A program made the translations under genes and the position numbers. A DNA stretch of 64,000 nt from Buxus sempervirens. Taxonomy: Eukaryota > Streptophyta > Magnoliopsida > Buxales > Buxaceae. Positions 11,529 through 62,853 of the stretch are shown here, piece by piece. Within the stretch, counting starts at the first letter, position 1, and each line of letters starts with the position of its first letter. The notes beneath the pieces were generated by a model, which had not been told where the DNA came from, searched no databases, and worked only from the letters and a program-made list of their open reading frames with translations. The stretch is taken from assembly GCA_947561395.2 (NCBI GenBank), contig OX387184.1:4836001-4900000 (forward strand), in the 5' to 3' direction.

Positions 11529-13732
11529 TCAACTGGCTGGTGGTGCAAGCGGCTCCAGCTCTGGAGCCACCTCTGCTCCTGAAGACCCATCAGCAACGTG
11601 GTCTAGTTTATTTTCAAATCCCCATAAACAGGCAGTTTTCAAATCGTCCTGGACCATTAATCTAGAAAACTCCTCGTGATCATACTTCAATGAGGCTTTA
11701 CCACCGAACACAGTGGGAAGGTTTTCCACATCAAAATATGACTTCATGAGCTCCTCGCTTTCTTTGTTATTTGGATAGACAAATTTCGTCCCTTCCGAAG
11801 ATTTTTGATCTAGGAGGTATTTAGTAACCTGCTCAGAGTAATCAAATTCTTCTTGTTAGAAAGGATGGTCAAAGCAAACATGATCCAACACAACATAATC
11901 CCTGAAACACATCCACGGTCAACTTCTTCTTTTTTTCTTTTTTTTTTTACTGAAAGGTGGCCTTTGTGGCTCCAATTAGAATGAACAAGATGCTGTAAGG
12001 AGAGAGCAGAGTTCAAACCTTCCAAAACGCTCCCAAAATCCTTGGGGGGTTGTAAAGTAATGATACGGCAAGCCTCCCAGGGTAGTGATTCTGTAAAATA
12101 TTTGATGAATCCCGGCCTGCTTTGATGGACACACTGGTGTTCATTGAAAAACCAGTGAAGTCTATCAACCAAATCAATTGTTCTTGACCCTCTGGAAGGT
12201 TCAGGACAGCATTCTCCAAGAGATACACCAAATAGCGAAGGTGACCATCACTTGATGAAGTGTTCTACAAAAATTATACAATGGGTTTAATCTTCACACC
12301 TACCAGAACTAAATGCAACCCCTCCAAAAACTTAATTAACACATATACCTGCATTCCTGGTCTCAATATTAGAACTGTTTTCCCATGTCGATCTCGAAAA
12401 TCAGCTCTGTATGCTTTGCTGGTCTCACCTTCATGTCCAACTTCATGCTGACAGTGAAAGAAGTTTTTATGGTAAGTTCAAGTTTCACAGATCAGTCCCA
12501 AATATATAGAAAATGGTGCTACATTGCCCTCAATATTTTCAAACATGTTGAACAAATTTTAAAGTAGCTAACCATTTAGAGCAGCATCAATGCTTTTTGA
12601 TTGCCACATGAATTTGATGGATCAGATAGAACCCCAAACCTTAGGTAGAATGATTGCAATATCATGCCCACATTCACGTAGACCAATTGATTACTATATC
12701 ATCAATGCATACCCCAACAGAATGTTGAGGTTTGTGGAACCTGATAATATTGGACACTCAGCCACACCCTTTACGGGTTGAAGGGTATTTTGTATATTTC
12801 ACATTGTATTAGGGTTAAAACGTAAAAATCTGTGTGTTTTCTTCATTTCTTGTTCGATTCTTCTTCGTTTTTGCTCCTAGCAATCTATAGGAATCAGATC
12901 GGATTCTTATCACAGAAAGGTTGGAAATGGTTGCAACGACTACACAGTACTTTGTACAGATGGTGATGACTTTCAAGGAGAAAGACATTGAGTTCATGAT
13001 ATATATTACAGCATTCCAGCAACTTAGCATATACAAAAATTGAGCTGTTAGTAGGAACGGTGTTTGATATGTTAAGGAACATATTAAACATATAAAAGTT
13101 CGCCCTACCATCAGCTTGAGCTGTTAGTAGGAATGGTGTTATACACATCAAGCATGACCCAACCCAAAATTGAACATGCAATCTGAAAAAGATAACAACT
13201 AGATGGAATGGCTTATAATGTGTTGCAAGGATCGATGGTCTAACTTACCCAGCGGATTTCCTCAGGCTTATAAGTTGACCGCCATTTGAGCGTCTCTTCC
13301 AACATTTTCTTTGATTTGACAACATTCCAATTTTGAGCTGCCAGATATCTTCTCAAGCATGCGTCATTGCAGTACTGCAAACTACGTCCGGATAGTGGAC
13401 CAATTGCAGCCTTCAGCTCATTGACCTGCTTATAGAGTTGGATTAGGAATGTTTCAAACGCTTGAAACCCATTTGATATACATATTACATCTTAAAAAAT
13501 TAAGAGAACGAGGACAGAAAGCATATATCAATAAGCAACGAATTACAAAGCAATGGTAGTTACCTAGAGAAATGCAATTAAATCTCTTTAAATCAAACAT
13601 TATGAGTCACTGGTATAAAAGAAAATACGTCTGCAATTAGATTTTGTATCTTCAACTTGGTTTTACCTTTTCCTCTTGCTGGATTGAGTCATTCTCTTGG
13701 TGATTATGAGCATTTTGCCTTCTCCAAAACAT
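11529..13732 (-). CDS. Sec14-like CRAL-TRIO protein, unit 1 copy
   Basis: Five coding exons on the minus strand, 13732-13667, 13425-13249, 12447-12349, 12264-12019 and 11828-11529, give 295 residues with all phases preserved. The product starts MFWRRQNAHNHQEND. It has the CRAL-TRIO N-terminal helical part (CLRRYLAAQNWNV, MLEETLKWRSTYKPEEIRW) and then the lipid-binding lobe (FRDRHGKTVLIL, NLPEGQEQLIWLIDFTGFS, LLYNPPRI, KSYFDVENLPTVFGGKA). Family members carry phosphatidylinositol or other lipids between membranes. Two normally well-kept stretches have drifted: LQNHYPGRL instead of YPERL, and LLDQKSSEGTK instead of a FLDPKTF-type segment. An untranslated first exon lies at about 15750-15873, so the gene spans about 4.3 kb. 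Confidence 0.85.
13036..13145. mobile_element. TRIM LTR fragments in intron 2 of the unit 1 Sec14-like gene
   Basis: A full-length LTR-like copy at 13070-13145 (TGTTAAGGAACATATTAAAC... to ...ATGGTGTTATACA) is preceded by the tail of a second copy. Both match the 77-bp LTRs of the TRIM at 36478-36776. The insert is absent from the matching intron of unit 2, so it is younger than the unit 1/unit 2 duplication. It is a fossil fragment without coding capacity. Confidence 0.75.
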
Positions 13733-15873: not shown

Positions 15874-16614
15874 GTTATGGATTGATGTCTCGTGTGGTTA
15901 TCTTTCATTATCACGGGGTCAAGTCAAAAAGTCAAAAGGTCATTCATTTTAGATTGACAGAATGGGCATCGTGTACTTTATTGTGTTGGGCCCTCAAATA
16001 AATGATGGGACTCCCACTGAATACAAGGGGTGTATACAATGTAAGCTGTATGAAATGAGGGACTCTAGCTTTTATCTATAATGTTATTTGCAGCATATAT
16101 AGGATACTGTTCACTTATTGTTCATCCATTTTTTTAGGTTTTATTTTTTATGTACGACCCGCATTGAATGGTACTACTTTAAAGTTGTAAATAAAAGTGT
16201 AGATAGGAATGGTACAGTTTGCCTTTTGAAACTGTAGGGGATGCGATTCGAGACCGACAACCAGGTAGTTCTACGTAAGTGTCTCTAATAAATGCTCACG
16301 TTTGGCTTTGGAGTGTCAACGGCCCCAATTTGTGTGCTCAGGTAGAGTGCAGATGCAGGTATGTTGGTGGTGGCAATAGGTGCAGGTGGCCTCCTATTGG
16401 GCCAACTCATCACAGCACGTATGGTTGTTGACGTGGTACGTGAGTTTTGATGAGGTGGTCCAGTAAGAGGCCACTTGCCCATACCCGCACCACCAACTTA
16501 CCCGCATTTGATCTGCACCATCACAGGTGGGGCTCGTTTCTTTGATAAGCAAGAACCGACATTAGGTGGGTTACTTTAAAGCACGGCTTAATTATTTTGT
16601 ACTGGATTTGAAAA
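15874..16614 (-). promoter_or_regulatory. Upstream region of the unit 1 Sec14-like gene
   Basis: This stretch is shared in part with units 2 (25564-26110) and 3 (35021-35460), including a block rich in GGTGGTGG and GGCCACTTGCC. It should hold the promoter. I see no distinctive regulatory box I would defend. Confidence 0.35.
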
Positions 16615-17013
16615 GGAAAATTTAATTTTTAGTGGTATTTTATCAAACTATTTAAGATTTAGTGGTCAACGTTTTGAGTTTTGACTTTTAATACATTTTT
16701 ATCAAAATAATTAATTTTTAATGTCATTTCAATGTTACAAATAAATTCTTCTAAAAATACACTTACATCACTTATTCAAATGATTTGTACAAGACTTGTA
16801 CAAGTTTAAAATGGCTTGTACAAGTCAATTTATTACTTGTATAAGTCTCGGAAGTAAGTTGTATAAGAGTATTTTTGAAAACATTTATCTAAAACATTGA
16901 AATGACACTAAACATTAATTATTTTGATAAAGGTGTATTAAAAGTTAAAACTCAAAATTTTACTATCTAAATCTTAAATAATTTGATAAAGTACTACTAA
17001 AAATTAAATTTCC
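16615..17013. mobile_element. Foldback MITE of about 400 bp (MULE-like)
   Basis: The two halves are reverse complements: the left half (GGAAAATTTAATTTTTAGTG, TTTATCAAAATAATTAATTT) pairs with the right (AATTAATTATTTTGATAAA, AAAATTAAATTTCCC). Flanks share ATTTGAA (16606-16614 against 17014-17022, seven of nine bases), as expected for a 9-bp duplication. The central loop has repeated CTTGTACAAG motifs. Units 2 and 3 lack it. Confidence 0.82.
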
Positions 17014-17265
17014 CATTTGAATGAAAATGATACACAAAGATGGCGATGGAACCCTGAACCTGGGTAGGGTTTGGTATCGCATAAATCGGGTTAGGATATA
17101 GCCCGATCCACCTGAACTTGACATTAAGCCATTAAAATATATTTCACTTTATTTTTATATTAATAAATATATTATTAATTTATAGTATATATTTCATTTA
17201 AAAAAAATTCATACTTTTACATTTTATAGTATAATCAGATCGATCCTTACTCATTCTGTTACTAA

Positions 17266-18892
17266 GGTGGCATTTGGTGGGCATTGTAGAATCTGGATTA
17301 GGATTCTAATCCCAAATTCTATAACCCAGATTATATTTCCTCGATTTTAGAAAACCAAAATCCTATTTGGATGAGTTGGATTGTGAACTCACATTTTTCA
17401 ATTAGAATTTGGAATCTTGTTTGGTTGCCACCGATTATTGATATTAAATTTGGAGTTTTATTATTAAAAATTAAATAAAAATAATATAATATATATATAA
17501 AAAAATTAAAGTCGTATTTACATATATATTATTACGTGACATGTATATTTTTATATAATATATAAATTTATATATAACATTATAATAATAATATTATAAT
17601 AATATATAATATTATGATAATAATAATATTATTTATATTATGTACTACAATAACACTACTATTATTTTAATAATATATATTATATTATAATATTATATAT
17701 TATATGATATTATAAATATTATATAATATATATAATAGTATTATAATTTAGAATATAATATTATGTATATTATAATATAAACTAGATTATAATTTATAAT
17801 TTTATAACTTATTATAATATATAATTTTATAATAATATAATTTATGTTTATTATAACTCAAACTTTATGTATATTATATATAATATTATAATAAATTTTT
17901 GTTGTAACACTAAATTTAATAAAATATAATATATTATAATATTAAATTTGTTAAATATATTAATATATATTATTATGTTAATATTAATATAATATTAAAT
18001 TTGAATATTATTTTATTAAATATATATGTATATAATATGTTTATTGTAACAATATAACATTATTAATATTAATATATCAATTTGTTTAAAATATATAATA
18101 TATTAATATGTTTCAGATTATTATATAATAATATAATAATGTAATATTATAATATATAATATTATTATAATAATACTATAGTATAATTAATGTTTATTAT
18201 AAAATAAATTCTAATATAAGTTATATTATAATTTATAAAATATTATTATATTAAATATAATATATGTATTATAATATTAAATTTATTACAATATATTATA
18301 ATATATTAAATTTATTATGATATTATAATATATTAAATTTATTATATTGTTATATTATTATATTTTATGATATAATAATATGTTTATTATAATAATATAA
18401 TATTATTATAATAATAATGTAATATAAGTTTTATTACAATTTGTTGTTATTAAAATAATATATTATAATAATAATTATTATTTATAATGTACATTATATT
18501 GAAATTTATAATTTATTATATATAATATAATAATGTATAGTATTATTATAATAATGATATTTATATTACATGTAATATAATTTAATATTGTATTATCAAT
18601 TATATATCATATAACAGAATATATTATATTATAATACTTATAATGTTATTATTTATTATAATATGTTTTATATAATATGTCATACATAATCTCTAGAATC
18701 ACATGTTTTGGAAATATGAGCACCAATGTCCATAATCCCTATAATCACCAAAAAAGGAGATACTGATTATGGGCTTGATTATACAATCGGATAGTAGAAT
18801 CCGGCCTTAAAATCCCAACCAAACACACCTTTTGGATTATGGAATCGGATTCTACAAGAATTCAGATTCTATAATGCCCACCAAACGCCCCC
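17266..18892. mobile_element. Harbinger/Tourist-like element with AT-rich core, TSD TAA
   Basis: The left end GGTGGCATTTGGTGGGCATT is mirrored by the right end, read outward, GGGGGCGTTTGGTGGGCATT. Flanking TAA occurs on both sides (17263-17265, 18893-18895), and the GGGGGCGTTTGG-type end is typical of PIF/Harbinger MITEs. Between arms of about 190 bp lies roughly 1.2 kb of almost pure A/T (17450-18690), mostly variants of ATAATATTATAATAT. There is no transposase. Unit 2 has the uninterrupted site near 26325-26335. Confidence 0.85.
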
Positions 18893-19148
18893 TAAGTCGA
18901 TCGAGTTTGGAGCTGGTTTGGTATGGGCTAAACTCTTTAGACGTGTTTTATTTATTTTTGTATTTCTATTATTCCTCTCTTTTGAAAGTCTTGTGCAATC
19001 ATCAAAGAGACTAATATTTAATTTTGAACATCAAGGGGATGCAACAAATACATTAAATGGAGGGCCAGTATATTTAAATCTGCTGAGACATGAGAGCCTG
19101 AAGCTTAAACACCTCATTATTCTATAAAACATCATTATGATTGTGCAA

Positions 19149-20554
19149 TCATCGTCTTGGTTTGAATTGAGAGTTTTTTACGTAAGGATCAGCAATTACA
19201 AGGTTAACAGTTTGACTCCTGAGTTTCTGACTCTCATTCATATCCCTGTGAACCCTGATGCCGAGTTTGAAATTAATGGTGTCAGAAGTAGTATGCACTC
19301 CAAAGGTTTCCCTTCCCTTCTCAGAAGAGGCCGAGTGGATAAGAAATCTGAAGAAGCTACATTTGTAAGCACAGACAGTATACGAACAACAGGAAATGTG
19401 AAGTTTGAGGTTTTTGCTAAAGATGATCTTGTACTTTCTGGTGTTCTGGAGATGTCTAACAATAGGGATCTTATCAGTGGGGACCTGGAAAACCATAGCA
19501 AGCGATGGAGCATGAATTGTGAAACAGAGATAACTATGGGCAGTGGCTTCTTAAAGGCCAATAAATGTGTAGGTCCTGAACGGCTTTCACCAACAATTGG
19601 AGTTTATGTTGCAGGTTGCTTCTTGGGCACTCCAATCATCTTAGCGAAGACTCTGCAACTTTGTTCTCGAAAGAAACATGTGTAAAAGGGAACATTGGAT
19701 TCTATCTCTGAGTATGAAACAACCGAATATCAAAAAGATGCTCCATCTGGGCTTGCCTTGCAGGTACTTACATGCAGATTAGAAGCCATTAGATCTAGAA
19801 ATTCAGGATGCTGTGTTTATTTGCCATTTAGTTCTTCATTTATACTTAAATCTTCCTTTTTACTGGTTGCTACAAAGCCTCCCTTCTAGGAAACATGCTT
19901 CTTGTTAGATGGTGACGCTTGACTGTCAAATAGAATCTTATCCTTGATGGGTCAGGTGGGTATGGCATGGCACATGTTTCCAAGTCATGGAATTATTCAA
20001 TAATACCTTTTTGTTTTCAGTGACATTTTTTTCCCATCTCTCCCATTGCTTCCATGGCTATTGCTTCCATGGCTCTCTCCATATCCAAGCATTTAGGTAC
20101 AAAAAAACTATTGTAATCTGCTTGACTGACTGCATCTTTTAAGGAGTACGTAATTAGTTGCTTCATTTGCTCTCTTAAATAGTTAAATCCGAAATCAATT
20201 AGTTGCATCTTTATGAATGATTCTCTAAAGCCTTCTTTCATGTGAAGGAGTTGCAAAATTATCAGTTTGGTACTAAATATGCAATGTGTGTGCTGCTTCT
20301 CATTCATTTTAAACTATTTCCAGATATCAGGATACGAAGGCTACAAATCGAAGAATGAAGAAGACCACAATACTTTGTTCTCAAGGACAGACTATATCGA
20401 TGGTGATGATGGAGAGCTCTCATGGTTTAATGCTGGCGTGAGCGTGGGCGTCGGAATTGGCCTTGGGATCTGTCTGGGAATTGGTATAGGAATTGGTTTG
20501 CTGGTCCGAACCTACCAAGCAACCAATGGAAACTTCAAAAGGCGGCTAACGTAA
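19149..20554 (+). pseudogene. At1g01500-like pseudogene, unit 2
   Basis: Exons 19149-19763 and 20324-20554 are nearly identical to the unit 1 gene, and the intron is also conserved. The copy has lost its promoter, leader and about the first 33 codons because the duplication break falls inside exon 1. The sequence now fused upstream offers only an accidental ATG (19137) that would give MIVQSSSWFELRV. Further on, the lysine codon after SRKKHV is TAA (19682-19684) instead of AAA, a nonsense change well before the membrane segment. Splice sites and the exon 2 frame are still intact, so inactivation is recent compared with the unit 3 remnant. Confidence 0.85.
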
Positions 20555-23492: not shown

Positions 23493-23918
23493 TCTATACT
23501 ACTAGTAGGGTGCATGTGCCGAACTGCACGTAAGGGAGGGAACAGTTGCAGGGTTTCAATTTAAAAGTGAGAGGTGGTTTGGGTGATTATATATTGGGAT
23601 TGTTTTAGTTGGGGAGGGTAATATTTGGAAGAAAAAAAATGGAGGCCAGAATCTGGAGGGAATATTCCCCCTTCTTCCCTTTATTAATAGTATAGATTAG
23701 TAAAGCAAATTAGGTGAATATTCCCCAGATTTTGGTTCCCCCTTTTTCTCTCTCGTGAAATGCCTTCCTCAAATCAAGAAATCAATTAGTATTCATCCTC
23801 AATTAAAACCGGTAACTCAAACATTTTTAACTTGCCAATCCATCAAATTAAAAGACTTACTCAAAGGGGCCCATGTTAACCATCAATATCAACGTCCAGT
23901 AGCTCACGTGCCCCCTAG
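23493..23918 (+). mobile_element. Helitron H1, unit 2 copy, interrupted
   Basis: This is the same insertion as 13899-14162, beginning TCTATACTA (23493-23501), resuming TTAGTAAAG at 23697 and ending CCCCCTAG. A second Helitron has entered after its ninth base. The two halves rejoin to the unit 1 sequence exactly, which fixes the boundaries of both elements. Confidence 0.88.
23502..23696 (-). mobile_element. Helitron H2 nested in H1
   Basis: Read on the minus strand it begins TCTATACTATTAATAAAG and ends with a hairpin around CGTGCAGTTCGGCAC, then CACCCTACTAG. Host A and T flank it (23501, 23697). Near relatives in the same family lie at 48804-48991 and 59013-59214. At 195 bp it is non-autonomous. 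Confidence 0.88.
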
Positions 23919-41524: not shown

Positions 41525-41588
<64 letters not shown>

Positions 41589-48803: not shown

Positions 48804-48991
48804 CTAGGGGGCTGCACGCGCTACGCACATAGAAAACGTGGGTCCACAAAGATAAACAATTCAAGGTAATTACAAGATGTTTAAAATAATGGGGGATTGT
48901 TTTATTTGGGAAATATAATGTTTAGAAAAAGAAAAGGGGGTCAAAATCTGAAGGGAATATTCCCTCATCTTCTCTTTATTAATAGTATAGA
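48804..48991 (-). mobile_element. Non-autonomous Helitron
   Basis: Read on the minus strand it starts TCTATACTATTAATAAAG and ends in ...GCAGCCCCCTAG between host A and T (48803, 48992). It belongs to the H2 family (23502-23696) but has a diverged 3' hairpin. No gene inside. Confidence 0.82.
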
Positions 48992-55263: not shown

Positions 55264-58243
55264 ATCGTTGTACCTAAAAGTTTAAGCTGAGAGGTGAAAG
55301 TACAATTATAAATTAACAAATAAATGCTCAAGCAAACTCCCTCAATTATATTTATACTAGTCGAGTGCATGCACGGTACTGTAAGTATAAAGAAAGAGGT
55401 AGACGGAGAGGGAATGGTTTCGAAACTGATTATTAAATTTCAAAAAATTGAGGCATTTATGAATATTGTACCATTTTATTAATGAATCTTGACAATGATA
55501 TCCAAGGGCTTTTTTGAAAAAGTCTCACATTTTGGTTAGCGCGATTCCCAAGGGACACCTCGCGTTACATATAATATAAATAAAAGGGTCCAAATACAAT
55601 ATCTTAACAAGGATGGAGCCAAAATGTTCTAATTTATTATTTTGCGAGAGCAAAGCTTTATTAAATTAAAGATGTTGACAACTACTTTAAGGTTTATTTT
55701 TCATAATAAAAAGCAAAGAATAATAGAACTCTCATCCTAGTAGTTGCATCCATGGAGTCCCGAAGTGCAAATTTAATAGAAATGTGTCCTCCCTAATTAA
55801 ATTAATAGAAATGTGACCCGAAGTGCAAATTTAATTTTGCTTTGCCTAAAACTACATAGAATTAATATTTCGTATATAAAACTACAAATTAAGAGTTTAG
55901 AACTGACACTGCCAGTGCTCACTGGAGGGTTACACTCTGTATTGCGATATCGATATTATAATCATATTGTTTTTGACTGTCTCCTTCAGTTCTTCGAATC
56001 AGGTCTTCCCAAGTATTTAGGGTGTTAATGAAATGGAATTATTTAATACGGGTATTAAGTGAAAAGTCTATCCCTTTATAGTTATTCGCACGCTACAACG
56101 GTCAGATGCGGGCCATGCGGCATGAAAGCGAACCGCTTTTATTGGGCCCACATCCTTTGCAACTACGACAGCGTAGCGTGGGATGAAATCGTCTACGGCG
56201 GGATTCGATGTTGTAGATGCACCTGTAACATCCCACGGCTGTTGTTTTTTTATTTTTTATTTTTAAATGTAAATGTCACTTAACTTCATTTCAAATTGAA
56301 AAAATGTGAAACGTGTAGCAGCTGTGGGATGATATATGTGATAGCATCCATCTATATGTGATAGCATCCCATAGATGCTACAAGGTTTGTCGCAGAATCC
56401 ATGCGATGGACATTTTTAACCCGCACAATGTTACATACAACGTGCTCGTATCATTTAGAGTCGTGAGATGCTCCATGTGAAAGTATCCCACTTAAATAGC
56501 AGGTGATAATTCATTTGAAAATATATAGCTTTCATTTTGTACTATTTCCGTTAATTGTTTTCCTTAAAACTAATTAATAATTTTTTTACCTTTTTTTTTT
56601 TTTTGGTAACGAATTTTTTAAAATTTAGAAAGCTGTATACAACGATTAAAGACGATTTCTATCCCATTCTTAATAATTAATTAGTCCAATAATTTTAAAA
56701 ATAAAGGATATAATAAATGTTTTTAAAAAATTATTTTTAAATACAATGGGCGAGTCACAAGTCCAACCATTTTAAAGGATTTGCACCCAGCCAAAACTTA
56801 GTACCTTCTGTTCAAATACTTTACCAACCAATCGAACTAGTCTATCTTGATTTTCTATTACAAATTTTTAGTATCGATCGATTTCAACAATATCAATGTT
56901 ATTGAAGCTTATTCGAGTGAAGATATTGCATGCTAATCCGTTGAGTCAAGTATTGACGACTTCGAATGTTTTAAAACTTGCCATTATTACTTTATATTTT
57001 ACTTACTATCATATAATCCTGTCGTTTTAATAATAGTACTAGTTGTTGGTCAAAGGTTGCAATAAGTGGAGTTGCATGGGATATGGGATAGACCTAGAAT
57101 ACCTTTGTTTATTGGGATAATTATGGTTTATCCCCTTAAGGTTTCAAATAATCCCATTTTCTCCCTCAAGGTTTTTAAAATACCAATTTATCAACTTAGA
57201 GTTTGATGTGTGTAACAGCTTTCCCTTCGAAGAGTTTGATTGATGATATGGCAAGAGAAAGAACATGTCAAGTTTGTGCTTTTTATTCTAACCGATTGAA
57301 GGGTAGAATTTTAAATGGCCAAAGTTGTCGATATATGTTTTTTCTTTTGTCACTATATTAATCAAACCTTTAGAAGAGAGAAACTGTTACACACAACAAA
57401 TCTCAAGATGATGAAACGGTATTTCAAAAACTTCAAGGAAGAAAATAGGATTGTCTGAAATCTTAAGACGGTAAATTATTTATTTGTTATTTTTCTTTCC
57501 TTTCGGTAAGGACCGGTCTGCTACACCTGTAGTTATAATTAAGATCAAAATAACTACATTTACAGTGCTAAATATTGAGCTTATAGTAACATTTAATCTG
57601 CATGCTAAAGTAAATAAAATAAGCATTTTTTAATGAGTTTTCTACTTTTCCGAAATAATAATTATAACTACAATATTTAATTTTCTGCCATTCATATTAT
57701 ACTTACTTATGAAGGCTGTAGATCCGCATCATTATGAGTGCTTAGGATTCTGATTAACCGTCATAATCTTAACACGTGATAATTTACCAATTAATATTAG
57801 TAAAAATTTCTACTGTAAAAGCCTCGTGTGGAAGGGCGCAGATCTTCTACAACGAATATAATGCAATATAGAACAGGACCGTGATACGCTACTAACATTT
57901 TTTTTTTTTAAAATACAAAATATTTTCTCTTCTAAATTCCAAGGCCAATCATAGGCCAGATGTTCATGCAGATGTTGTAGAGGATTTCCATTAACTGAGT
58001 TTCATTTAGACAACAGAGAGCTAAAGCAGGATTGGATCCAAGGTTCCTCTGATAGCCCTGGGTATAAAAGGAAACCAAATGGCTTGGGCCTGCTTGGATT
58101 GTAGGGTCCGGCCTTGGGGGCCCAGAAAAGCTTTTCTATCTATCTTCCTCAGATGACCTCCATAACAATCACCAATTTGGCCTCATCTACAGCACATTCC
58201 GTCCTTTAACGAGATCGTCGGAGAGCACCCAAAAAAAAAAAAA
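55264..58243. repeat. Gene-free tandem duplication, first unit
   Basis: About 3 kb starting AATCGTTGTACCTAAAAG is repeated from 58244 in the same order and direction. Shared landmarks include the Helitron at 55357-55580, TGCACCCAGCCAAAACTTAG, GTTGTTGGTCAAAGG, AATTAATATTAGTAAAAATT and the closing GAGAGCACCCAAAAAA. I found no gene or conserved frame in it. Confidence 0.85.
55357..55580 (-). mobile_element. Helitron-like element in the first 3-kb unit
   Basis: On the minus strand it ends in GCATGCACTCGACTAG. Its 5' region, AACGCGAGGTGTCCCTTGG, resembles the start of the units in the 61.3-kb array. The 5' TC has decayed but is preserved in the duplicate at 58383-58605. Confidence 0.68.
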
Positions 58244-59012: not shown

Positions 59013-59214
59013 TCTATACTATTAATAAAGGAAAGAGGAGGGAATATTTTTCAGATTCTGGCATTTCTTTTTTTTTTTTCCAAATATTATCCTCCTCAAC
59101 TAAAACAATCTTAACATATAACCACTACAGCCAGTCAACCACCTTCCACTTTTAAATTGAAACCTCGCAACTGTTCCCTCTCTTACGTGCAGTTCTGCAC
59201 GTGCACCCTACTAA
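59013..59214 (+). mobile_element. Non-autonomous Helitron private to the second 3-kb unit
   Basis: It starts TCTATACTATTAATAAAG, has the 3' hairpin ACGTGCAGTTCTGCACGT, and ends CACCCTACTAA (CTAA fits the Helitron CTRR rule) between host A and T. It belongs to the H2 family. The site lacks it in the first unit. Confidence 0.85.
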
Positions 59215-60587
59215 TAATAGAAATGTGAACCAAATCGAGAGTGAGATTACTAATCATCAAATTTAATTTTGCTTTGCTTAAAAGTACGTAGAAATATTTT
59301 GTATATAAAACTACATATTAAGATTTTAGTACTGTAACTTTGTCAGTGCGCACTGCAGGGTTACACTCTGTGGTGGCGATATTATAATCATATTGTTTTT
59401 GACTGTTCTCTTCAGTTCTTCGAATCATGTCTTCCAACTGTTTAGGGTCAAAATGAAATGGAATTATTTAACACGGGTATTAAGTGAAAAGCCATTCCGT
59501 TTATAGTTTCTTCGCACGGCACAACGATCAGATGCGGCATGAAACAGCAGCGCTTTTGTTGGGCCCACCGCCCGCATCCTTTGCCACGAGGACGGCGTAA
59601 CGTTACATGCGACGAGCTCGTAGTATCGGAGCATCCCACCGTCGGTGTTTTGTTATTTTTTATGGATGCTTTACATGAGAATAGCTTAAAAAAACACTAA
59701 CCGTATGATATTCCTGATATTCCACGTGGAAGCATCCAGCAACGACTATTCATCTGAAAATGGCAAACAAACTGTTTAGTTTATTGTTTTTTTTTTAAAC
59801 TAATTACTATTTTTTTTTTACTTTTTAAAATTTAGAAAGCTACATACAACGATTTCAGGGAATTTCTATACCATTTTTATAGATTTTTACTAATTAGTCC
59901 AATATATTTAAAAATAAAAGATTTAATAATTATTTTTTAAATACAGTGGGCAAGTCACAAGCCCAACCATTTTAAAGGATGTGCACCCAGTCAGAACTTA
60001 GAACCCTCAGTTAAAATACTTTACCAGCCAATCGAATTAGTCTATCTCGATTTTTATTAAAATCAATATGTTATTAAAGTTTATTCGAGTTAAAATATAA
60101 TATACATGGCTAATCCGTTAAGTCAAATCAGTCTATGTTTAAGAATGTTTTAAGACTCGCCGGTATTAGCCTGTATTTTCCATACTATCATAAATTTTTG
60201 TCGTTTTAATAATAGTAAGAGTTGTTGGTCAAAGGCTGTAATGAGTGGAGGTGCATGGGATATTTGATAGATCTAGAGTACCTTTGTTTATATTGCATAA
60301 TTTCAGTTTACCCTTGAGATTTCAAACAATCACACTTTTTCCGTTAAGGTTTTTGAAATACCAGTTTACTACCTACGAGTTTACTGTAGGTAACAAATTT
60401 TCTTTTCAAGAGGTTTGACCAATGATATGGGAACTAGGAAGAGACATGGGTAATGGGAGAATCCGTTCATTTATCGAACCAACCTATTCATTAAGATCAT
60501 AATAACTATATTTACAGCGCTAAATATTGTACTTATGATAACATTTAAGTTGCATGCTAAAGTAAGTAAATAAGGACTTGAAATCTG

Positions 60588-60700: not shown

Positions 60701-61340
60701 AACGATCAGCTGATATGCTTTGTAAATAAGCATTTGGAGTAGATGGTTAATCTTTTTCCGTCATAAAGAGTTTTGGGAGATAATTTTAACTTTAATATTT
60801 AATTTTCTGCCATCCATATTATACTCACTTATTAAAGCTGTAGATCCGCGTCATTATGAGTCCTTACGATTCTGATTAACCGCCATGCTCTTGACACGTG
60901 CTAATCTGCCAATTAATATTAGTAAAAATTTCTACTGTAAAATCCTCGCGTGGAAGGGCGCAGATCCTCTACAGCGAATATAATGGAATATAGAACAGGA
61001 CTGTGATATGCTAGTCACACTTTAAAGATAAAATATTTTCTAAATTCCAAAGGCCAATCATAGACCGGTTGTTCATGCAGAGGCTGTAGAGTGTAGAGGA
61101 TTTCCATTAACTGAGGTTCATTTATTAGACAACAGAGAACTAAAGCAGGTTGAATCCAAGGTTCGTCTGATAGCCGGCCCTAGGTATAGAAGCAAACCAA
61201 ATGGCTTGGGCTTATTTGGATTTTGGGTGCAGCCTTGGGCTTGGACAAAGCCTAGAAATGCTTTTAACTTGTCCGTTGGAAAGCACGCAAAAAAAAAATC
61301 TATCTATATATTATATTATATTATATCTCTATTATATATC

Positions 61341-62853
61341 TCTACTATATATAAAGCGAGGTGCCCTTTTTGGAAATCGTGCCAAACAACAAGTTACAAC
61401 TTTCACAAAATGCCCATCTCTTGTATAGTTTAGTTTCAATAATACAGGGCTATACCTGTCTCAACTCAATATTTTCGTTCAAAAACAATTAGTTTGTAAC
61501 TACCCCACTTCTCCTCTCTCCCCACTTCTCCTCTCTCCACGTGCAGTTTTAAAACTACTCCCTTCCTTTTTTACGTGCATGTAGTACTACACGTGAGCTC
61601 TGCTAGTCTACTATATATAAAGCGAAGTGCCCTTTTTGGGAATTGTGCCAAACAACAAGTTACAATTTTTACAAAATGCCCATCTCCTGTATAGTTTAGT
61701 TTCAATAATACAGGGCTATACCTGTCTCAACTCACTATTTTCGTTCAAAAACAATTAGTTTGTAACTACCCCACTTCTCCTCTCTCCCCACTTCTCCTCT
61801 CTCCACGTGCAGTTTTAAAACTACTCCCTCCCTTTTTTACGTGCATGTAGTACTACACGTGAGCTTTGCTAGTCTACTATATATAAAGCGAAGTGCCCTT
61901 TTTGGGAATTGTGCCAAACAACAAGTTACAATTTTTACAAAATGCCCATCTCCTGTATAGTTTAGTTTCAATAATACAGGGCTATACCTGTCTCAACTCA
62001 CTATTTTCGTTCAAAAACAATTAGTTTGTAACTACCCCACTTCTCCTCTCTCCATTTTCTTTCTCCCCACTTATTCTCTCTCCACGTGCAGTTTTAAAAC
62101 TACTCCCTCCCTTTTTTTACGTGCGTGCAGTACTGCACATGGGCCCGCTAGTATATATAAAGCAAGGCGCCCTTTTTGGGAATCGTGCCAAACAACAAAT
62201 TACAACTTTTACAAAATGCCCATCTCCTGTATAGTTTAGTTCCAATAATACAGGGCTATACCTGTCTCAACTCACTATTTTCGTTCAAAAACAATTAGTT
62301 TGTAATTACCCCACTTCTCCTCTCTCCATTCCCTCTCTCCCCACTTATTCTCTCTCCACGTGCAGTTTTAAAACTACTCCCTCCCTTTTTTACGTGCGTG
62401 CAGTACTGCACATGGGCCCTGCTAGTTATATATAATGAAAAGAGGCCCCTTGAGAATCGTGCCAATCTTGATGTGCACATTTCCTAAAAAAAAACCCTTA
62501 CAAATCATTCTTAAGATTCTTTAATAAAGGGGTATAATGGTCATAATTGCCTAATTCCTTTAAAACCGAACTTGAGCAGTTTTATAATTGTTCCCTCCCT
62601 ATTTTTCTATATATAAATGCAATACTGAACGTACAATTTGCTAGTATATATATTAAGAAGACGTCCCTTGGGAACCGTATTAATCTTAATGTACTCCTTT
62701 CCTAAAAAACCCTTACAAATCATTGTTAAGATTCTTTAATAAAGGGGTATAGAAGTCATAACTGCCTAATTCTTTTAAAACTTCAACATTTGTACAACTA
62801 TTTCCTCCCTTATTTTTCTACAGACATGCAGTACTACATGTGAACTTTGCTAG
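61341..62853 (+). mobile_element. Head-to-tail array of six Helitrons
   Basis: Six units each end in CTAG and are followed at once by the next: 61341-61606, 61607-61872, 61873-62151, 62152-62425, 62426-62644 and 62645-62853. Units 1-3 start TCTACTATATATAAAGCG; unit 4 starts five bases later in the same sequence. Units 1-4 share GTGCCAAACAACAA, AATACAGGGCTATACCTGTC and CTCCACGTGCAG, and end in a hairpin (GTAGTACTAC in units 1-2, GCAGTACTGC in units 3-4) before CTAG. Units 5-6 are a second subfamily with CCTTACAAATCATT and AATAAAGGGGTATA. None has coding capacity. No host base pair separates the units, unlike independent insertions at A|T sites. Confidence 0.87.

Follow-up and report, generated by a model that had tools for sequence, protein, structure and literature searches.

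A head-to-tail array of six Helitron-like units in Buxus sempervirens, probably grown by serial insertion, and a candidate left-end-like target motif

The window, a 64,000-nt stretch of the 676-Mb Buxus sempervirens genome, carries six short Helitron-like units that abut head to tail on the forward strand at 61339–62853, as determined by direct reading of the assembly and by alignment. The six-unit array was confirmed as a real feature of the assembled sequence. All six units end with CTAG at the 3' end, and in all five junctions the following base is the start of the next unit. U1 (61339–61606) begins with a complete 5' end, TCTCTAC, right after a host A at 61338. U2 (61607–61872) also has a complete start, beginning with TC, and is discussed below as a hybrid, and U3 (61873–62151) has the complete 5' end TCTAC. 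U4 (62152–62425) is without the TCTAC tip and begins TATATATAAAGC, and both U5 (62426–62644) and U6 (62645–62853) are without the TCTATAC tip. The base after U6 is C, where T was expected. U1–U4 constitute family A, the dispersed copies of which begin A|TCTAC or A|TCTCTAC. U5 and U6 constitute family B, the dispersed copies of which begin A|TCTATACTATATATAATG; TCTATAC was carried by most of the 14 fetched starts of U6 relatives. In the alignment of the six units, identity was 96.6% for U1/U2, 96.6% for U2/U3, 96.0% for U3/U4, and 80.3% for U5/U6, while U5–U6 were 59–64% identical to U1–U4. Moreover, GCAGTACTGC and a 13-bp insertion are common to U3 and U4. The original prediction of six Helitrons joined head to tail was therefore borne out, as were the different hairpin sequence and small insertion that it described in units 3–4, the other subfamily in units 5–6, and the shortened starts in units 4–6. 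Its near-identity of the first two units also stood, but its array start at 61341 was placed two bases too far downstream.

Genome searches returned at least 59, 75, 43, and 42 matches for U1, U3, U5, and U6, respectively. With up to three mismatches, CTAGTCTACTATATATAAAG occurred twice in the window against 0.01 occurrences expected, and GCTAGTCTACTATATATAAAG occurred 14 times genome-wide, compared with 0 for its reversed control. Directly to the left of U1, 61299–61338 on the forward strand may hold a stack of 5' ends left by interrupted Helitrons, namely, TCTATCTATATATTATATTATATTATA at 61299–61325 and TCTCTATTATATA at 61326–61338. Each starts with TC after an A; the stretch is simple sequence and is only compatible with an origin from older elements. 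A search for an empty site of the window array found none, the left flank having one 84% paralogue approximately 3 kb upstream. In this region, 57658–58118 is repeated at 60780–61239 (84%) and 57004–57267 at 60183–60448 (79%), approximately 3 kb apart, and 57127–57475 is 74% identical to its own reverse complement. Elsewhere in the window, 41526–41588 is a run of 63 C, unusual in AT-rich sequence and possibly an assembly feature, and 16001–20000 comprises 4 kb at 26–28% G+C that is full of degenerate TA-rich repeats.

Judged by sequence, the array units are supported as Helitron-like elements of the canonical, non-autonomous type. U1, U2, and U3 begin with TC and every unit has the Helitron end CTAG, the tips of U4–U6 being lost. 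Among starts in which TCTAC or TCTAYAC could be recognised, the base before the element was a host A throughout, both in family A (45 of 45, with 18 further starts that follow CTAG or CTAA set apart) and in family B (20 of 20). At the 3' side, 97 distinct junctions were collected, keeping only 3' ends with CTAG or CTAA near the end, and T followed the element in 96 of them; the exception was U6. Precise insertion at A|T with no target-site duplication was observed at one empty site, that of the dispersed family-A copy L053. The RepHel domain PF14214 gave 142 matches in the genome and none in any of 14 control genomes. The 3' palindromes GTAGTACTAC and GCAGTACTGC are visible in the units. When the folding of the last 45 bases was predicted, 22, 24, 56, 81, 69, and 63 of 200 shuffled sequences were at least as stable for U1–U6, respectively, and the predicted 3' fold is not clearly stronger than that of the shuffles. 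A search against Rfam returned 0 matches at the gathering score.

The second unit differs from its neighbours in its ancestry. Its 5' part showed no differences from U3 (0/168) and seven from U1 (7/168), while its 3' part showed two differences from U1 (2/89) and 14 from U3 (14/91). The bases that it shares are rare, as assessed against 68 other family-A units, a set from which family-B units, pieces <200 bp, and duplicates were left out. In three columns of the 5' part, the bases common to U2 and U3 occurred in 1, 4, and 1 of these 68 units, and in the 3' part, those common to U2 and U1 occurred in 4/68, 2/68, and 0/64, with 64 being the number of units that have a base there. U2 is thus, by its letters, a hybrid of a U3 5' part and a U1 3' part, which is the signature of unequal exchange. 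Such an exchange between U1 and U3 would give exactly the order U1, U3/U1 hybrid, and U3. The U1|U2 and U2|U3 junctions would then be copies of a single U1|U3 junction, and the window array would represent five inserted units, not six.

The original prediction had read the array as a likely rolling-circle concatemer. In that case, a single event running through the terminator would have inserted several joined copies, and the subfamily differences would have arisen later or from mixed templates. This agrees with the exact CTAG|TC junctions, where no host base intervenes, and the circles of Helraiser carry the same junction (PMC4778049, accessible text). Head-to-tail Helitrons have been cited as support for rolling-circle replication. 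However, insertion of a newcomer between a host A and the first T of a resident gives the same letters, so the bare junction does not discriminate between insertion and concatemer, and the junction alone does not support rolling circle here. As serial insertion and recombination also yield these letters, the relatedness of neighbouring units decides.

Units from one circle should be each other's nearest relatives. For U1, U3, and U4, a copy elsewhere matched over the whole length as well as or better than any neighbour. Among the matches listed, the nearest whole-length relatives of U1 were U2 and L003, tied at 9/257 differences, and the 5' part of U1 differed at 1/168 positions from a copy on C6, compared with 7/168 from U2 or U3. 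The nearest outside copies of U3 among the matches listed differed at 12/271, compared with 14/271 for U4; those of U4 differed at 6/269 (C11 and C12), compared with 14/271 for U3. The same was observed more widely, in a sample drawn from the top-scoring matches of U1 and U3 rather than from every copy. Here, 18 adjacent family-A pairs were readable, leaving out family B, units ≤225 bp or <88% identical to the query units, and pairs >8 bases apart. At least one unit had a nearer relative than its neighbour in 15 of the 18, and most sampled neighbours are of separate ancestry. The three mutual-nearest pairs were two of the five in L048, another six-unit array on C11 (G000:C11:23617137–23618808), and U1/U2, for which an outside copy is equally close and the hybrid nature of U2 provides the explanation. 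Since the sample lacks some copies, adding further relatives could reduce the number of mutual-nearest pairs but not raise it.

The concatemer reading is therefore unsupported, although the L048 pairs would suit it, and it is considered improbable; the mixture of two families in the window array, the shortened starts of U4–U6, and the recombinant U2 also stand against it. The alternative with which the original prediction closed, that units were captured repeatedly at one end or had recombined, fits better, and both processes seem to have occurred. Ordinary satellite growth, mainly by unequal crossover and with the Helitron ends irrelevant, would account for U2, which is such a product, and for L048, which looks locally multiplied and where local multiplication is likely. 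It is nevertheless hardly to be expected as the main process, as, for most units, closer relatives lie on other chromosomes; the many dispersed copies with clean A/T borders had already weakened this reading.

Accordingly, we consider it probable, at roughly three in four, that the array arose as non-autonomous Helitrons inserted one after another, each independently, at the 5' ends of resident Helitrons, with later unequal exchange producing U2 and with a probable target bias of RepHel. A newcomer landing at the A|T formed by a host A and a resident T would leave the host A, the newcomer, its CTAG, and the resident TC, with no extra base. Alternatively, it would enter a few bases inside the AT-rich head of the resident, and its CTAG would end against what is left of the resident. 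A downstream unit without its tip implies that the upstream unit arrived later, from which an order of insertion may be read for the units before U4, U5, and U6. At L021, L026, and L054, the lost tip of the older element was readable directly to the left of the newcomer. In these and other cases of a Helitron inside a head, the left and right leftovers together hold at least one TA beyond the standard head, reflecting either older length variation or a gain of TA at insertion.

Several observations run against serial insertion. The mutual-nearest pairs of L048 and U1/U2 indicate that local multiplication also occurs. Moreover, the nested cases have at least one extra TA, U6 is followed by C, and there is no gradient toward younger units at the 5' end. 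Such a gradient was sought in the distances to the nearest outside copies, which showed no steady fall toward the 5' end, so an age order along arrays was dropped and no gradient is claimed.

The DNA immediately 3' of the insertions was biased toward T-N7-A-W-G-N-G-A-A-G, which matches the elements' own heads, C|T-N7-ATGAGAAG in family B and C|T-N7-AAGCGAGG in family A. A box test divided the 97 3' flanks into 48 recognisable Helitron heads and 49 non-heads. The non-head flanks were AT-rich for approximately 8 bases, followed by A, W, R, N, G, A, A, and G, with conservation stopping near position 16. The core AWGNGAAG at offset 8 scored a mean of 4.20 of 7 in the 49 non-heads, compared with 2.16 at 12,638 A|T sites of the same loci; none of 20,000 simulated sets reached 4.20, the highest being 2.80. 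In a stricter set of 54 flanks, from which 9 of 63 had been dropped because they resembled a unit or one another to any degree, the mean was 3.87 versus 2.15 and was highest at offset 8. By query, it was 4.33 for family A (n=21), 3.62 for U5 (n=21), and 3.50 for U6 (n=12, including L001 and L017, which were seen before the motif was defined). When AT-rich sites only were compared, 44 flanks averaged 3.73 and the controls 2.35.

As the flanks from which the motif was first derived were themselves scored afterwards, the unseen material consists of 20 U6-family flanks fetched after the motif had been seen and three elements in the window. The 20 flanks scored a mean of 3.30, and the 14 that were not heads by the box test, three of which have one common flank, scored 3.57; the scores were highest at offsets 7–8, and the other six flanks were heads. 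The three solo elements belong to a third family, and their 3' ends were set where CTAG or CTAA first occurs before a T. The element at 59013–59214 on the forward strand ends with CTAA and has a flank matching 6 of 7. On the reverse strand, the flank of the element at 23502–23696 matches 5 of 7, as does that of the element at 48804–48991, the 3' end of which is placed at the first CTAG before T and confirmed by no relative, homology to the other two covering only its first ~100 bases. The chance of the summed scores of 6, 5, and 5 at offset 8 was 1.5e-5, with scores of at least 5 found at 2.6% of 11,998 A|T sites in the window.

The flanks of four insertions, L042, L044, L053, and L075, were searched genome-wide. 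The L053 flank occurs in local copies on C12, one of which (C12:38970740–38970880) is the empty site, 98.4% identical over 122 bases across the junction, with insertion exactly at A|T and nothing duplicated or lost. The empty site already has TCACTATTATAAGAAG, matching the box at 6 of 7, and no Helitron tip lies to its left. The motif might instead consist of remains of other Helitron heads, where most insertions happened to land without any target preference. That 48 of the 97 3' junctions adjoin a recognisable head and that a further repeat family starts at the L042 flank would be expected from such remains, whereas the genome-wide search gave no dispersed relatives of the L044 and L075 flanks at the junction, the empty site near L053 carries the box with no Helitron tip to the left, and conservation stops near position 16. 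With the repeat start at L042, some flanks classed as non-heads are heads; given also the pre-existing box at L053, the motif is partly, not only, the heads of other Helitrons, and an origin wholly from such heads is judged rather unlikely. Read-through, by which a short piece of the element's head would have been copied once more to form the 3' box, was ruled out by the degenerate flanks; family-A elements also adjoin B-type boxes, and the box predates the insertion in the one empty site.

It is thus somewhat favoured that transposases in this plant pick targets of approximately 16 bases that resemble the sub-terminal part of their own left end (T-N7-A-W-G-N-G-A-A-G) and are entered at the A|T just before. 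RepHel would recognise its own left end through the box T-N7-AWGNGAAG and take similar boxes as targets, so that a single DNA-reading step would serve both target choice and origin recognition. The heads of residents would then be good targets, with their exact 5' A|T as a second one, and each insertion would provide a better target than ordinary DNA, such that Helitrons stack. Homologous exchange would later reshape the arrays, as at U2 and L048. Some HUH enzymes, such as those of IS91 and IS200/605, choose targets related to their own ends.

Tandem and nested Helitrons are known from maize, bats, fungi, and plant centromeres, according to the accessible parts of the reports (PMC2267711, PMC5148889, PMC3288121, and PMC12628747). 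For the head-to-tail pair at maize r1, insertion at a host A and a resident T was proposed in 2008, in opposition to the concatemer interpretation by Pritham and Feschotte that is cited in the same paper (PMC2267711, accessible text). As in the window array, CTAG lies directly against the next TC and the neighbours differ, and consecutive insertions were favoured. Unlike the array, the maize pair consists of two long gene-carrying elements, and the accessible text mentions no hybrid unit or left-end-like target motif. The rolling-circle arrays of plant centromeres (Xiong et al. 2016, as reported in accessible parts of PMC12628747 and PMC5148889) are likewise tandem copies in plants; their copies are described as truncated, often with many 5' ends and a single 3' end, whereas in the window array CTAG is present in all six units and adjacent units are for the most part not sisters. 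In fungi, three tandem copies were described, for which 5'-end insertion and rolling circle were both offered, and one Helitron was inserted 2 bp upstream of another element; unlike the present units, these Helitrons are non-canonical, with a TNAT|A target (PMC5148889, accessible text).

The A|T target is shared with Helraiser, the AT-rich preference of which is strongest on the 3' side (PMC4778049), and with new insertions in wheat, where Helitrons prefer AT (PMC13286980). In contrast to the motif found here, the accessible text of these two papers does not say that the target resembles the left end of the element itself. A literature search, made mostly among papers available without subscription, found no statement of a left-end-like Helitron target. 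As far as these searches show, the array is of a known kind, and the target motif, if it holds, would be the new part. A transposase preferring origin-like targets would explain stacking and offer a simple reason for the clustering and nesting of Helitrons, and target choice by this little-understood enzyme would be directly testable with published insertion sets.

Two further arrangements were observed. At G000:C12:41024633–41025199, two family-A Helitrons (L006 and L018) are arranged head to head, separated by 21 bases. The repeat family starting in the L042 flank has five close copies at G000:C9:38303451–38304307, approximately 150–300 bases apart, and is perhaps another stacking Helitron-like family.
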